DNA from: Streptomyces maremycinicus
GTDB lineage: Bacteria > Actinomycetota > Actinomycetes > Streptomycetales > Streptomycetaceae
Reading direction: 5' to 3'
Assembly: GCF_001184025.1 (NCBI RefSeq)
Contig: NZ_BBYG01000016.1
Span: forward strand, 186,001 to 250,000
DNA length: 64,000 nt
The position numbers and the translations under genes were made by a program. The notes under the pieces were generated by a model that was given only the letters and a program-made list of their open reading frames with translations, was not told the DNA's origin and made no database searches. Each line of letters starts with the position of its first letter. Positions within the stretch are counted from its first letter, which is position 1. Positions 11,251 through 59,302 of this stretch are shown here, piece after piece.

Positions 11251-12078
11251 TCAGAACGAGGCGATGACGGAGCCGTCGTAGGTGTCCTGGATGAACTTCT
11301 TGACCTCGGGGGAGGTGAGGAGCTTCGCGAGCTTCTTCACCCGCGGGTCGTCCTCGTTGCCGTCCTTGACGGCGAGGAAGTTGCCGTACGGGTTGTCCGT
11401 GGCGGACTCCAGGACGAGGGCGTCCGACGCGGGCTTCAGGTCGGCCTCGATGGCGTAGTTGCCGTTGATGACGGCGGCGTCCACGTCGTCCAGGGAGCGC
11501 GGGGTCTGGGCCGCCTCCAGCTCCTTGAACTTGAGCTTCTTCGGGTTGGCGGTGATGTCCGCGGGGGTCGCCTCGTTGCCCACGCCCTCCTTGAGGGTGA
11601 TGAGCTTGTTCGCGGCGAGCAGCTTGAGGGCGCGGGCCTCGTTGACGCTGTCGTTGGGGACGGCGATCGTCGCGCCGCTCTTCAGGGCGTCGGCGCTCTT
11701 CACCTTGTGGGAGTAGAGGCCGAGCGGCTCCAGGTGCACCGTGACGACGGGCACGATGTGGGTGCCGTTCTTCTTGTTGAAGTCGTCGAGGTACGGCTGG
11801 TTCTGGAAGTAGTTCGCGTCGACCGAGCCGTCCTCCGTCGCCGTGTTCGGCGTGACGTAGTCGGTGAACTCCTTGACCTCCAGGTCGAGTCCGGCCTTCT
11901 TCGCCAGCTTGTCCTTGACGAAGTCGAGGATCTCGGCGTGCGGGGTCGGGCTCGCGGCGACGGTCAGCGGGCCGCTGGTGTCGGAGGCGGAGTCCTTGTC
12001 CGAGCCGCAGGCGGTGAGCCCCAGGGTGAGGGCGCCGACGGCGAGGACTGCGGTGGTGAACTTGGCGGTGTTACGCAC
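11251..12078 (-). CDS. metQ: Methionine-binding lipoprotein of ABC importer
   Basis: A 275-residue NlpA/MetQ-family substrate-binding lipoprotein. The signal peptide ends in the lipobox LTAC, so Cys24 would be lipidated and anchor it outside the membrane. Family signatures include VAASPTPHAEILDFVKDKL, DYVTPNTATEDGSVDANYFQ and VVTVHLEPLGLYSHKV. It should capture methionine (or related sulfur amino acids) and hand it to MetI. It is the last gene of a metN-metI-metQ operon. Confidence 0.92.
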   Translation of the reverse strand: MRNTAKFTTAVLAVGALTLGLTACGSDKDSASDTSGPLTVAASPTPHAEILDFVKDKLAKKAGLDLEVKEFTDYVTPNTATEDGSVDANYFQNQPYLDDFNKKNGTHIVPVVTVHLEPLGLYSHKVKSADALKSGATIAVPNDSVNEARALKLLAANKLITLKEGVGNEATPADITANPKKLKFKELEAAQTPRSLDDVDAAVINGNYAIEADLKPASDALVLESATDNPYGNFLAVKDGNEDDPRVKKLAKLLTSPEVKKFIQDTYDGSVIASF

Positions 12079-12154: not shown

Positions 12155-12892
12155 TCAGGCGGCCTTGCCGACGTCCGGGGCGGCCGGCTCCTTGGCCTTC
12201 AGCAGACGGAGCCTCGGCGCGGGACCGGAGCTGCCGCCGCGGCGGTGCAGGGAGCGGGCCGCGTAGTCGCCGGCGAACTGGATGAGCGAGATGACGACGG
12301 CGAGGATCGCCACCGTGATCCACATCAGTTCGGTCTCGAAGCGCTGGTAGCCGTAGCGGATGGCGATGTCGCCGAGACCTCCGGCTCCGACCGTGCCGGC
12401 CATGGCGGAATAGCCGATGAGGGCGACGATCGTGGTCGTGGTGCTCGCGAGGATCGAGGGCAGTGACTCCGGCACGAGGACCTTGCGCACGATGGTCCAG
12501 GTGTTGCCGCCCATCGCCTGAACGGCCTCGACGAGTCCGCCGTCCACCTCGCGGACGGCCGTCTCGACCAGGCGCGCGAAGAACGGGATGGCGCCGATGG
12601 CGAGCGGCACGATCGCGGCCTCGCGGCCGATGGTCGTCCCGGTGATGGTGCGGGTGAAGTTCATCAGCGCGACCATCAGGATGATGAACGGCAGCGAGCG
12701 GGCGATGTTCACGATCTGCCCGATGACCTTGTTGGCGGCCAGGTTCTGGAGCAGGCCGCCCCGGTCGGTCAGGACCAGCAGGACGCCGAGCGGGAGGCCG
12801 CCGACGACGGCGATGAGCGTGGACCAGCCGACCATGTAGAGGGTGTCCCAACACGCCTGGGACAGCAGCGGCTGCATCTCGGACCAGGTCAC
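12155..12892 (-). CDS. metI: Methionine ABC transporter permease
   Basis: A 245-residue MetI-type permease with about five transmembrane helices. The EAA loop that docks on the ATPase is EAVQAMGGNTWTIVRKVL (about residues 122-139). Other family stretches are NIARSLPFIILMVAL and SAMAGTVGAGGLGDIAIRYG. The ATG overlaps the metN stop by four bases, so translation is coupled. The C-terminus carries about 30 charged residues beyond the last helix. Confidence 0.93.
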   Translation of the reverse strand: MTWSEMQPLLSQACWDTLYMVGWSTLIAVVGGLPLGVLLVLTDRGGLLQNLAANKVIGQIVNIARSLPFIILMVALMNFTRTITGTTIGREAAIVPLAIGAIPFFARLVETAVREVDGGLVEAVQAMGGNTWTIVRKVLVPESLPSILASTTTTIVALIGYSAMAGTVGAGGLGDIAIRYGYQRFETELMWITVAILAVVISLIQFAGDYAARSLHRRGGSSGPAPRLRLLKAKEPAAPDVGKAA

Positions 12893-13959
12893 TTGGCACC
12901 ATCCTTCAGCAGCACGGACTCCTGGGCCGTGTCGGCCGCGGTGGCCGTGTCGGCCGTGTGGTCGACGATGTCGATCTGGAGGCCCTGTTCGCGCAGGAAG
13001 CCGACCGGCACGACGTTGTCCTCGTAGCGGCCGGGCAGCTCGATGCGCATGCGGCCGACCTGGAGCCCGCCGACGGTGTCGATGGCGGCGCCGAGGATCG
13101 AGATGTCGATGTTGTACGTGCGCGACAACTGGGAGATGACGGGCCGGGTGGCGGCCTCCCCGAGGAAGGTGACGTCGACGACGGTGCGGTCCTCGCCGGT
13201 GGCGTCGCCGCCGACCGGGAAGAGCGCGCCGGCCAGCTCGGAGCCCGGCGTCGCGAGCAGCTCGCCGACCGTGCCGGACTCGACGACCCGGCCGTTCTCC
13301 ATCAGCGCGGCGGAGTCGCAGATCGACTTCACCACGTCCATCTCGTGCGTGATGAGCAGGACGGTCAGGCCCAGCTGGCGGTTCAGGTCGCGCAGCAGCT
13401 GGAGGATGGAGCGGGTGGTCTCCGGGTCGAGCGCGCTGGTGGCCTCGTCGGAGAGCAGCACCTTGGGGTCGCCCGCGAGCGCGCGGGCGATGCCGACGCG
13501 CTGCTTCTGACCGCCGGAGAGCTGGGCCGGGAAGGACTTCGCCTTGTCGGCGAGACCGACGAGGTCGAGCAGCTCCAGCGCCTTGCGGGACCGTTCCCGT
13601 CCCGAGACGCCGAGGATCTCCAGGGGCAGTTCGACGTTGTCCTGCACGGTCCGCGAGGACAGCAGGTTGAAGTGCTGGAAGACCATGCCGATCCGGCTGC
13701 GCGCCTGTCGCAGCTCCTTGCCGGCCCGGGGTCCGCGCCCGGCGAGCGCGGTGAGGTCCTGTCCGGCGACGGTGACCGTGCCGGCGGTGGGACGCTCCAG
13801 GAGGTTGATGCAGCGGATGAGCGAGGACTTGCCGGCGCCGGACTGGCCGATGACGCCGTACACCTCGCCTTCGCGGACGTGGAGATCGACGCCGTCGAGG
13901 GCGGTGACCTCACGGCCGCGCGAGCGGTAGACCTTGGTCAGGCCCGTGGTGGTGATCAC
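12889..13959 (-). CDS. metN: Methionine ABC transporter ATP-binding protein
   Basis: A 356-residue ABC ATPase with Walker A GQSGAGKSS, signature LSGGQKQRVGIARAL, Walker B VLLSDEATSALD and switch His in LLITHEMDVV. Residues about 265-340 form the C-terminal NIL domain (TRPVISQLSRTYNIDISIL), which in MetN proteins binds methionine and shuts transport down when the cell is replete. Start: GTG 13959 (ITTTGLTKVYRS) has GGAAC about 5 nt upstream; GTG 13974 is the alternative. It is the first structural gene behind the leader at 13960-14296. Confidence 0.93.
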   Translation of the reverse strand: MITTTGLTKVYRSRGREVTALDGVDLHVREGEVYGVIGQSGAGKSSLIRCINLLERPTAGTVTVAGQDLTALAGRGPRAGKELRQARSRIGMVFQHFNLLSSRTVQDNVELPLEILGVSGRERSRKALELLDLVGLADKAKSFPAQLSGGQKQRVGIARALAGDPKVLLSDEATSALDPETTRSILQLLRDLNRQLGLTVLLITHEMDVVKSICDSAALMENGRVVESGTVGELLATPGSELAGALFPVGGDATGEDRTVVDVTFLGEAATRPVISQLSRTYNIDISILGAAIDTVGGLQVGRMRIELPGRYEDNVVPVGFLREQGLQIDIVDHTADTATAADTAQESVLLKDGAK

Positions 13960-14174
13960 GTGGAGTTCCGTCACTGTCGAGTGCGCGGGCGTGGGTGTGC
14001 CCGGGCGCACGGGTGCAGGCTGTCAGGGACGCGACACGGCTCTCGCTGTGGCGGGGAACCGGGGAGAAACATGTGCGCGGGGCGCGGCTACGTCCTGTAC
14101 GGCGGAATTGCGGCGCACGGACATGCCACGGCGTCTCGCTTCGGGGCGCGAGCTCGGGGTGGTGCGGGGGCCCT
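13960..14174 (-). promoter_or_regulatory. Putative attenuator region between leader peptide and metN
   Basis: A 215-nt untranslated stretch between the leader stop codon and metN. Just upstream of the metN ribosome binding site (13981-14010) is a strong hairpin: GTGCG, bulge CC, CGGGC, 8-nt loop, then GCCCG CGCAC. A smaller CTCGC/GCGAG hairpin lies closer to the leader stop. Such elements could switch with ribosome position on the leader. There is no U-tract, so control may be of translation or Rho-type termination. Folding alternatives were judged by eye only. Confidence 0.5.
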
Positions 14175-14261
14175 CTAGAAGGCGCACATTCGACACATAC
14201 AGCGAGCACCGGGCGTCATGGTCGCCTCGGTCGCAAGGGTGCGGCTGCTCGTCGTGGTCAT
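14175..14261 (-). CDS. Cys/Met-ending leader peptide upstream of metNIQ
   Basis: A 28-codon reading frame whose last ten residues are ARCMCRMCAF, read from CGC TGT ATG TGT CGA ATG TGC GCC TTC then TAG. It ends with three Cys and two Met codons around a rare CGA, and two of the Cys codons are the uncommon TGT. Its ATG lies 7 nt downstream of a -10-like TTTACT, so the mRNA is probably leaderless. The placement in front of a sulfur amino acid importer, the clustering of Cys/Met codons at the very end, and the hairpins that follow fit a regulatory peptide sensed by ribosome stalling. Leaderless Cys-rich leader peptides are known in mycobacteria; I do not know this one as described. Confidence 0.7.
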   Translation of the reverse strand: MTTTSSRTLATEATMTPGARCMCRMCAF

Positions 14262-14268
14262 GAGCATC

Positions 14269-14296
14269 AGTAAAGCAGACGTACGGTCCTGACCAA
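14269..14296 (-). promoter_or_regulatory. Promoter of the metNIQ leader transcript
   Basis: On the minus strand: TTGGTC, 16-nt spacer, TTTACT, then 7 nt to the leader ATG. The -10 is imperfect but the spacing suits a leaderless vegetative promoter. Confidence 0.5.
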
Positions 14297-14405
14297 GACC
14301 CCCCTGTCCGCATGCCGGACACCCGTGGACGGTCCGCGGGACCACTTCGGCCGTGTCCGGCGACCTCCGCCGCCCCTCCCCTGGCCAGCACCGGCAAGGC
14401 CGACC

Positions 14406-14434
14406 GGCCCGTCGTCGGACGCCGACGACGGGCC
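14406..14434. terminator. Strong hairpin in the divergent met/membrane-protein intergenic region
   Basis: A perfect 13-bp stem (GGCCCGTCGTCGG and complement) with a 3-nt loop. It lies between the met leader promoter and the divergent gene at 14584, and may insulate the two or be a binding site. The rest of 14297-14583 is extremely GC-rich with no other clear feature. Confidence 0.4.
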
Positions 14435-14583
14435 TGCGCGCCCGGTCGGCTGTGGCCAACGCCACGGCCGCCGGACGGCCGGGGCGGACGGCGCCCGCCC
14501 CGGCCCGGACCCGGCGCCGGGGCGGGCGGCCGGGGCCCGGGGCCGATCGCGGGACGCCTGATACGCCGTAATAAGGTCACTGC

Positions 14584-14943
14584 ATGCTTGATGCCCTGAC
14601 GCTGGTGACCGGCGTCGCCGCGTTGCTGCTCGCCGCCTGGTGCGGCTGGGCCGCCTACCGTGACCAGCCGACGAAGGACTGGCATTTCATCGGGATGGCC
14701 GTGGTCTCCCTGCTGGCCGTGATCCAGCTGGTGGTCGGCGTCGTCCAGCTGGCGCGGGGCGAGAAGCCGGAGCAGGGGACGACGATCTTCGTGGCCTACC
14801 TGCTCGGCGCGGTCGCGTGCGTTCCGGCCGTGGCCTTCATGTCGCTGTCCGAGCGGACCCGCTGGGGTTCGGTGACGGCCGCCGCGGGCGGTGTGGTGCT
14901 CGCCGTGCTCGAGGTGCGACTGTATGACATCTGGGGAGGCTGA
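14584..14943 (+). CDS. Small integral membrane protein
   Basis: A 119-residue protein with about four transmembrane helices (ALTLVTGVAALLLAAWCGW, FIGMAVVSLLAVIQLVVGVV, TIFVAYLLGAVACVPAVAF, VTAAAGGVVLAVLEVRL). No domain is recognised. A TAAGGT -10 box 6 nt before ATG 14584 suggests a leaderless mRNA. The next gene starts 2 nt after its stop and is also a membrane protein, so the two probably form a pair. Confidence 0.8.
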   Translation: MLDALTLVTGVAALLLAAWCGWAAYRDQPTKDWHFIGMAVVSLLAVIQLVVGVVQLARGEKPEQGTTIFVAYLLGAVACVPAVAFMSLSERTRWGSVTAAAGGVVLAVLEVRLYDIWGG

Positions 14944-59074: not shown

Positions 59075-59105
59075 AAAAAATGCCCCGAACGATCACATGC
59101 GGGGC
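59075..59105 (-). terminator. Intrinsic terminator in the infC leader (candidate attenuator)
   Basis: On the minus strand a GCCCCG/CGGGGC stem with a 12-nt loop followed by ATTTTTT, one of the few U-tract terminators here. It is about 200 nt after the predicted transcription start and about 90 nt before the infC start, so it would stop transcription before the operon unless relieved. A second hairpin (CCATCGT/ACGATGG) lies just upstream at about 59160-59185. Confidence 0.65.
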
Positions 59106-59302
59106 TCCAAGCACTACCGGAGCACCGCCGCGTGAACGCGGGGCGCACTACGGGCGACTCCATCGTCCGTACGGAACGATGGTGGCCGCCTGACCGGGGT
59201 GACCCGCCGTCCGTGAGGACAGTCGGGTGGGAGTTCGGAGCCTCCACTTGTGGGCCGGATCCGCCTGCCGAGGGGCACGCGTGTCCGACCGGTCGTTACA
59301 CG

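Follow-up and report, generated by a model that had tools for sequence, protein, structure and literature searches.

Background

The closest described leader to the one analysed here is metL of Streptomyces lividans TK24, which, according to excerpts of the published report (Front Microbiol 2021, PMC8079986), encodes the homologous peptide MSTTSDRTPATEATTTPGARCMCRRMCAF, is leaderless by RNA-seq, has no Rho-independent terminator and is listed as methionine-dependent. In mycobacteria, leaderless sORFs with polycysteine tracts were described (Canestrari 2020), and their attenuation is said, in excerpts of two papers (PMC9031893, PMC13236596), to hinge on cysteine supply. A survey, in the part available (PMC1262725), reported no conserved RNA structure upstream of methionine operons in Actinobacteria, unlike the locus presented here.

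The present locus lies on the minus strand of a 64,000-nucleotide stretch of Streptomyces maremycinicus DNA, the whole of which is called the window and to which all coordinates refer. A leader ORF, uORF1, precedes an operon for a methionine importer in this window. The results point to uORF1 as a translation-level attenuator at whose Cys (or Met) codons ribosomes would stall, and a probability of about 0.6 was assigned to this reading.

Leader collection and distribution

The leaders were collected from 274 candidate loci, of which 225 were kept (167 Streptomyces, 56 Actinomadura-like and 2 Kitasatospora) after leaving out 40 identical copies and nine loci failing the recognition rule, that is CG[AC]ATG[TC]G with a following stop and a C-rich block. 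These nine were seven Streptomyces loci having a uORF1 frame (L020, L108, L149, L185, L189, L251 and L342), one Actinomadura-like locus having a uORF1 frame and no second ORF by scan (L293), and the weak second match of one genome with neither frame (L294). A motif search located the metN-type start in 164 of the 167 leaders of Streptomyces and in 52 of the 56 Actinomadura-like ones.

Of 199 genomes belonging to the window's genus, 86 contain the 18-mer TGYATGTGYCGNATGTGY, which encodes CMCRMC; its reversed control pattern gave one match. Model R1 matched 176 of 197 genomes of the order, all of them of the window's genus, with one match per genome save for one genome having two. Five genomes of the genus were without an R1 match, and a laxer search of them gave only weak places (E 0.03 to 9), which were rejected. 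Across 296 genomes of the class, R1 matched 28 of the window's genus and one other, G587, in whose order the core pattern was present in 10 of 150 genomes. The core model R2 matched 54 of 65 genomes of genus g124, which belongs to another order. Of its 32 matches across the 296 class genomes, 27 fell in the window's genus, one was G587 and four, all weak (E 0.006 to 0.0095), were not accepted; the R2 hits rest on sequence, the hairpin bracket being one column off, and were verified by reading the ORFs. Genera g124 and g107 are presumptively called Actinomadura-like because the Actinomadura locus L024 carries the core. At two g124 loci without a core match (L358 and L359) a leaderless-looking ORF start is left, and neither the core nor the second ORF was found; these are possibly natural losses of both.

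Leader ORF, promoter and downstream operon

The ORF reading and the comparison with homologues placed uORF1 (metL) at 14175..14261 on the minus strand, encoding the 28-residue leader peptide MTTTSSRTLATEATMTPGARCMCRMCAF*. The promoter assigned to it (14269..14296, minus) consists of a -35-like TTGGTC (14296-14291) and a -10 hexamer TTTACT (14274-14269) separated by 16 nt, and the ATG at 14261 follows 7 nt later. In the 163 homologous Streptomyces leaders with an assigned start a -10 box lies 6-7 nt ahead of the start codon, and in 157 of them it reads TTTACT, a count to be read with the fact that the start codon assignment itself demanded a -10-like hexamer. A consensus promoter scan gave no promoter-like site at the window leader. 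Transcription of uORF1 in the window probably begins at its ATG, the start having been measured for the S. lividans homologue (PMC8079986, in excerpt).

The peptide ends in ARCMCRMCAF; its Cys codons are TGT, TGT and TGC, and CGA stands directly before the last Met codon. Between the stop codon and metN lie 215 untranslated, C-rich nucleotides, and the last hairpin predicted in them ends at 13981, which is 21 nt upstream of the GTG at 13959. The promoter, the frame, the codon choice and this hairpin-bearing stretch thus agree with the preliminary description, as does the leaderless start. The same description had regarded the peptide as undescribed, and this part is withdrawn since the S. lividans TK24 homologue is already published as metL. 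No Pfam or NCBIfam family was matched by the leader peptide.

The downstream genes are metN (12889..13959, the ATPase of a methionine ABC importer, with Pfam ABC_tran and NIL), metI (12155..12892, permease) and metQ (11251..12078, substrate-binding lipoprotein), all on the minus strand and all assigned with Pfam and NCBIfam. Among the NCBIfam matches MetI scored above its cut-off, and MetN and MetQ were best matches yet below theirs. The metN initiation region (13957..13972, minus), read from the sequence and its relatives, holds a weak Shine-Dalgarno-like GACGGA (13972-13967). The most likely metN start on this comparison is the GTG at 13959, because several relatives, as read from the alignment, do not keep the upstream in-frame GTG (13974) in frame, and the GACGGAA surroundings are conserved.

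Just upstream of the promoter, an exact match to the palindromic, operator-like TGTCC-N7-GGACA occupies 14305..14321 (minus), where 0.61 matches would be expected by chance in the window with one mismatch allowed. Of 166 Streptomyces leaders 112 carried the site, 108 of them at -57..-60 and the other 4 at -68..-70 relative to the start codon; these loci, 453,580 nt altogether, gave 113 matches. None of 55 Actinomadura-like leaders had it. The palindrome is a candidate transcription-factor site for metNIQ, as judged from its placement. An inverted repeat GCCCGTCGTCGG / CCGACGACGGGC was also seen by eye upstream of the leader at 14390-14440, terminator-like and without a T-tract.

Translation and codon content of uORF1

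In all 47 entries, which stand for 46 loci because the window was counted twice, a whole number of codons separates CGAATG from a start anchor that makes no use of the frame; the nine entries whose length was other than 69 keep the frame too. This supports translation of uORF1. The Cys and Met codons were retained among the orthologous leaders, a point on which the preliminary description had set its possible refutation. Per peptide, the 124 distinct Streptomyces ORFs averaged 3.1 Cys and 2.4 Met beyond the start, and the 55 Actinomadura-like ORFs 3.9 and 2.3. The Cys codons of the window are interleaved (CMCRMC) with no contiguous run, and Cys-Cys pairs occur in some relatives only. Of the 78 metN leaders described below, only 12 passed a strict scan for leaderless Cys ORFs, six of them from g124 and g107. 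By eye, more Cys/Met-rich frames were noticed elsewhere, such as CCDMREMSSMCAMCRMCSVR in g122 and CCPGRMLSR in g84.

The name metL implies that methionine alone is the signal, with the Cys codons as passengers. This is the published reading, as far as the excerpts of that report go (PMC8079986), and it suits an operon that imports methionine; extra Met codons do occur, and Arg-Met is constant, although this constancy is partly built in because the recognition rule demands CG[AC]ATG[TC]G. A signal of methionine only is nevertheless considered unlikely, as Cys is commoner than non-start Met in both groups and some relatives with Cys-rich ends have few Met.

RNA structure of the leader

The folds (RNAalifold and the minimum-energy fold of the window) predicted a three-way junction inside uORF1 at 14199..14255 on the minus strand (CGAGC/GCTCG, CGCA/TGCG and ACCG..GGCG/CGCC..CGGT), which spans codons 3-21. 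The fold z values were -2.6 for 14261-14199, -1.9 for the whole leader, -1.2 for the block after the stop and -1.5 for the region of hairpin P5. Mean column entropy over 92 distinct Streptomyces ORFs was 0.13 bits at paired and 0.74 bits at unpaired positions, and for third codon positions alone it was 0.20 versus 0.44; the loops of the junction hold the most variable codons of uORF1. The junction is an instance of conservation more than of covariation, since its columns are nearly invariant, compensatory changes are few and a mismatch interrupts the outer stem in the window. In the Kitasatospora leaders L021 and L022, whose ORFs end in RMCRRMRRMCCR and RMCGRRMCRR, the pairing inside the ORF seems by eye to be replaced (ACATGC/GCATGT).

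The stop codon is followed by a conserved block at 14135..14173 (minus), made of GGGCCCC and a hairpin CTCGC-GCCCCGAA-GCGAG (14152-14135). Of 164 Streptomyces leaders, 162 have GGGCC following the stop and 160 have the hairpin motif CGCCCCGAAGCGA, and the block is common to both orders and nearly invariant. Closer to metN, the folds and arm counts support hairpin P5 (13975..14010, minus), in which GTGCGC (14010-14005) pairs with GCGCAC (13986-13981), followed by TCGACA (13980-13975). Among 164 Streptomyces leaders, 130 have GTGC..GCAC as its outer arms and 16 have GTAC..GTAC, which is a compensated change; standard pairs made up 64.6% in the true register and 68.0% when slid by -2. An antisequestor (2:3) pairing the mid site with the 5' arm of P5 was dropped, as the mid-site GCAC was unchanged in the GTAC-arm leaders inspected by eye.

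Such features could also belong to a riboswitch-like RNA binding a metabolite or a protein, over which the ORF lies by accident and whose peptide is irrelevant. The lower entropy of the paired columns within the ORF and the near invariance of the post-stop block across two orders would suit this proposal. The strict multiple of 3 from start to CGAATG despite unequal lengths speaks against it, and so do the Cys/Met-rich frames in genera having a different RNA sequence (g122, g39 and g84). Rfam at the gathering score also gave no match at the leader, and a search of 13850-14450 with E up to 10 gave only six chance-level matches (E 1.1 to 5.6). A structured RNA indifferent to the peptide is hence judged improbable. 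The sole Rfam match in the window at the gathering score was the Scr1601 small RNA at 59075-59297 on the minus strand (162.9 bits).

Complementarity of the uORF1 end to downstream initiation regions

The window fold and the complementarity tests identified a pairing hub at 14182..14195 (minus), formed by the codons TGT CGA ATG TGC GC. In the window fold TGTCGA (14195-14190) pairs with TCGACA (13980-13975), adjoining the metN Shine-Dalgarno, CTGT (14202-14199) pairs with ACGG (13971-13968), and ATGTGCGC (14189-14182) pairs with the mid site GCGCACAT (14078-14071), which occupies 14071..14078 on the minus strand and is complementary to the final codons of uORF1.

The 17-nt window most complementary to the uORF1 end began within -35..-26 of metN in 119 of the 164 leaders of Streptomyces. 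When partners were swapped among the Streptomyces leaders, 13 of 3000 swaps were as good as the true pairing of the uORF1 end with metN -33..-13, against 1026 of 3000 for the control window; because partner swaps ignore shared ancestry, all swap figures are read as indications. In a comparison of the same pairing with letter-shuffled leaders, p<=0.05 was reached by 76% of the 111 distinct pairs, against 11% of 142 for the control. The TGTCGA/TCGACA helix had 71.1% standard pairs versus at most 56.0% when slid, and it showed no covariation: where TGT differs, the partner mostly remains TCGACA. Five anchor-less leaders were left out of the pairing table.

The mid site, supported by partner-specific complementarity, was located by a CCCGCG anchor and not by fit to its own leader; none of 3000 swaps was as good (137 of 164 Streptomyces leaders usable, 117 distinct). 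Its partners were ATGTGCGCC mostly with CCCGCGCAC, ATGTGTGAC often with CCCGCGTCACC, and in some cases ATGCGCGCC with CCCGCGCATG. When the mid site was anchored on GCCACGCC instead, the true partners had no advantage (2086 of 3000 swaps as good; 17 of 164 leaders, 15 distinct pairs).

For the Actinomadura-like leaders the uORF1 end was compared with the start of the second ORF, uORF2, and 6 of 3000 swaps were as good, against 2432 of 3000 for the control window. This helix had 79.5% standard pairs (32 distinct pairs) and 10 two-sided cells, while slid versions had 15.9 to 63.9% and 1 to 7 cells. Against letter-shuffled leaders the result was borderline, with a median p of 0.06 and p<=0.05 in 48% of 42 pairs, and the uORF2 start ranked first among the windows in only 22 of 56 leaders, the remaining best windows being scattered. 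Taken as indications, the sequence comparisons suggest that the complementarity of the uORF1 end is both site-specific and partner-specific.

A second short ORF in relatives

All 56 kept Actinomadura-like leaders had uORF2, a short ORF lying 55 to 81 nt after the uORF1 stop, and the count becomes 56 of 57 once L293 is included. The peptide ends in HLLSHAPYPPGxx* or a close variant. Its residues H, L, P, P, P and G were invariant in 52 of 52 distinct DNA versions, in an alignment for which PPG was the anchor and with a search rule that favours P. The third bases vary, as GGN occurs in all four forms, CAC and CAT in 31 and 21, and the stops are TGA or TAG. Varying third bases beside invariant residues argue for selection on the uORF2 peptide.

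Upstream regions of 78 metN genes from 24 genera were gathered through MetN alone, without reference to uORF2. A uORF2-type peptide was found in 27 of these regions and in 9 of the 24 genera, 6 of the 27 being from g124 and g107. It often reads LRRLSHLPF[PH]PGTR* (among L355-L432, for example L373, L376, L381 and L424). In some of these regions a Shine-Dalgarno-like GAAGG or GAAAG was seen by eye before the ATG of this ORF. The uORF2 peptide strings had no mention found in the open-access literature. A remnant of uORF2 in Streptomyces is not claimed, as only 10 of 164 leaders had GAGCCA[CA]GCC, 5 had an LSHAP frame and a single one had a uORF2-like peptide.

It is tentatively suggested that the Actinomadura-like group and its relatives use a two-stage relay, in which uORF1, responding to the charging of Cys- or Met-tRNA, would gate uORF2, and uORF2, as a new and perhaps ligand-responsive arrest peptide, would gate metN. 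In Streptomyces, uORF1 would be wired directly to metN.

Proposed mechanism and effect of masking

From a transcript starting at the uORF1 ATG, with charged Cys-tRNA (or Met-tRNA) plentiful, ribosomes would complete uORF1 and depart. The vacated last codons, CGA-AUG-UGY-..., could then fold back on the initiation region of the next ORF, for which the complementarity described above was observed. The target in Streptomyces would be the mid site together with the stretch directly upstream of the metN Shine-Dalgarno, and in the Actinomadura-like leaders it would be the start codon of uORF2. When Cys or Met is short, a stalled ribosome would cover the antisense strand, the partner would be free and the importer would be made.

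The effect of masking the leader was calculated with an equilibrium fold for 68 usable leaders out of 70 drawn from the 167 of Streptomyces, and for 51 usable of the 56 Actinomadura-like leaders. The Streptomyces region metN -26..-12 opened clearly, with 38 of 68 leaders opening and 1 closing. The predicted pairing of metN -14..+3 was 0.58 free and 0.57 masked (6 opening and 5 closing), and for metN -6..+3 masking opened 16 and closed 7, again for n=68. At the uORF2 start, masking opened by more than 0.1 in 34 of 51 leaders and closed in 4. The nearly unchanged predicted pairing of the metN start in Streptomyces is the main gap in the attenuation model, as calculated by an equilibrium fold that is blind to co-transcriptional order.

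A Rho-dependent attenuation of transcription was also weighed, in which the translation of uORF1 and the state of pairing would set the exposure of the C-rich stretch to Rho before metN. The intrinsic terminator scan of 13850-14700 found none with a U-tract between uORF1 and metN; this and the 215-nt C-rich untranslated stretch accord with Rho, which is proposed for the cys leaders of other actinobacteria in the part of the survey available (PMC1262725). The conserved pairing targets are initiation regions, metN-proximal in one group and the uORF2 start in the other, and these would be unneeded for control by Rho, which makes this route rather doubtful. Translational attenuation is the simplest reading of the data; it is plausible and better supported than before. 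Of the control by stalling put forward in the preliminary description, what stands is a real ORF, Cys/Met-rich in two orders, whose end is complementary to downstream initiation regions; the novelty of the peptide does not.

If translational attenuation by uORF1 is correct, the locus would represent an actinobacterial sensor of sulfur amino acids built of an ORF and RNA alone, where the same nucleotides would both sense, as codons, and act as antisense against the start that follows. Streptomyces without and the relatives with the second ORF offer a natural series for comparison, and uORF2 is a candidate arrest peptide.

Comparison with known systems

The window ORF shares with S. lividans metL the gene position, a homologous peptide and the lack of a terminator. 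The metL description, as far as the excerpts of that paper extend (PMC8079986), concerns one strain and mentions several methionines and threonines; it covers neither conservation nor RNA partners, and it offers no Cys reading and no second ORF.

The mycobacterial Cys attenuators, as excerpted, have in common with uORF1 a leaderless short ORF with Cys codons. Their Cys codons are contiguous and precede cysteine biosynthesis genes, whereas those of uORF1 are interleaved with Met and Arg before a methionine importer and are followed by a conserved RNA block after the stop. The Cys leader peptides of Mycobacterium, P. acnes and B. longum, in the available part of the survey (PMC1262725), have Cys near the stop and no clear terminator, as in uORF1.

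The RAPP-class arrest peptides, among the matches listed and as excerpted, are encoded by an upstream ORF with a C-terminal Pro-Pro, like uORF2. They are tied to protein localisation genes, whereas uORF2 precedes metN and its arrest is a prediction. No other report of the conserved leader layout was found among the matches listed from the open-access literature. Set against these systems, three things are new: a leader layout that is conserved, the proposed antisense role of the final uORF1 codons and, most of all, the conserved uORF2 of the relatives.
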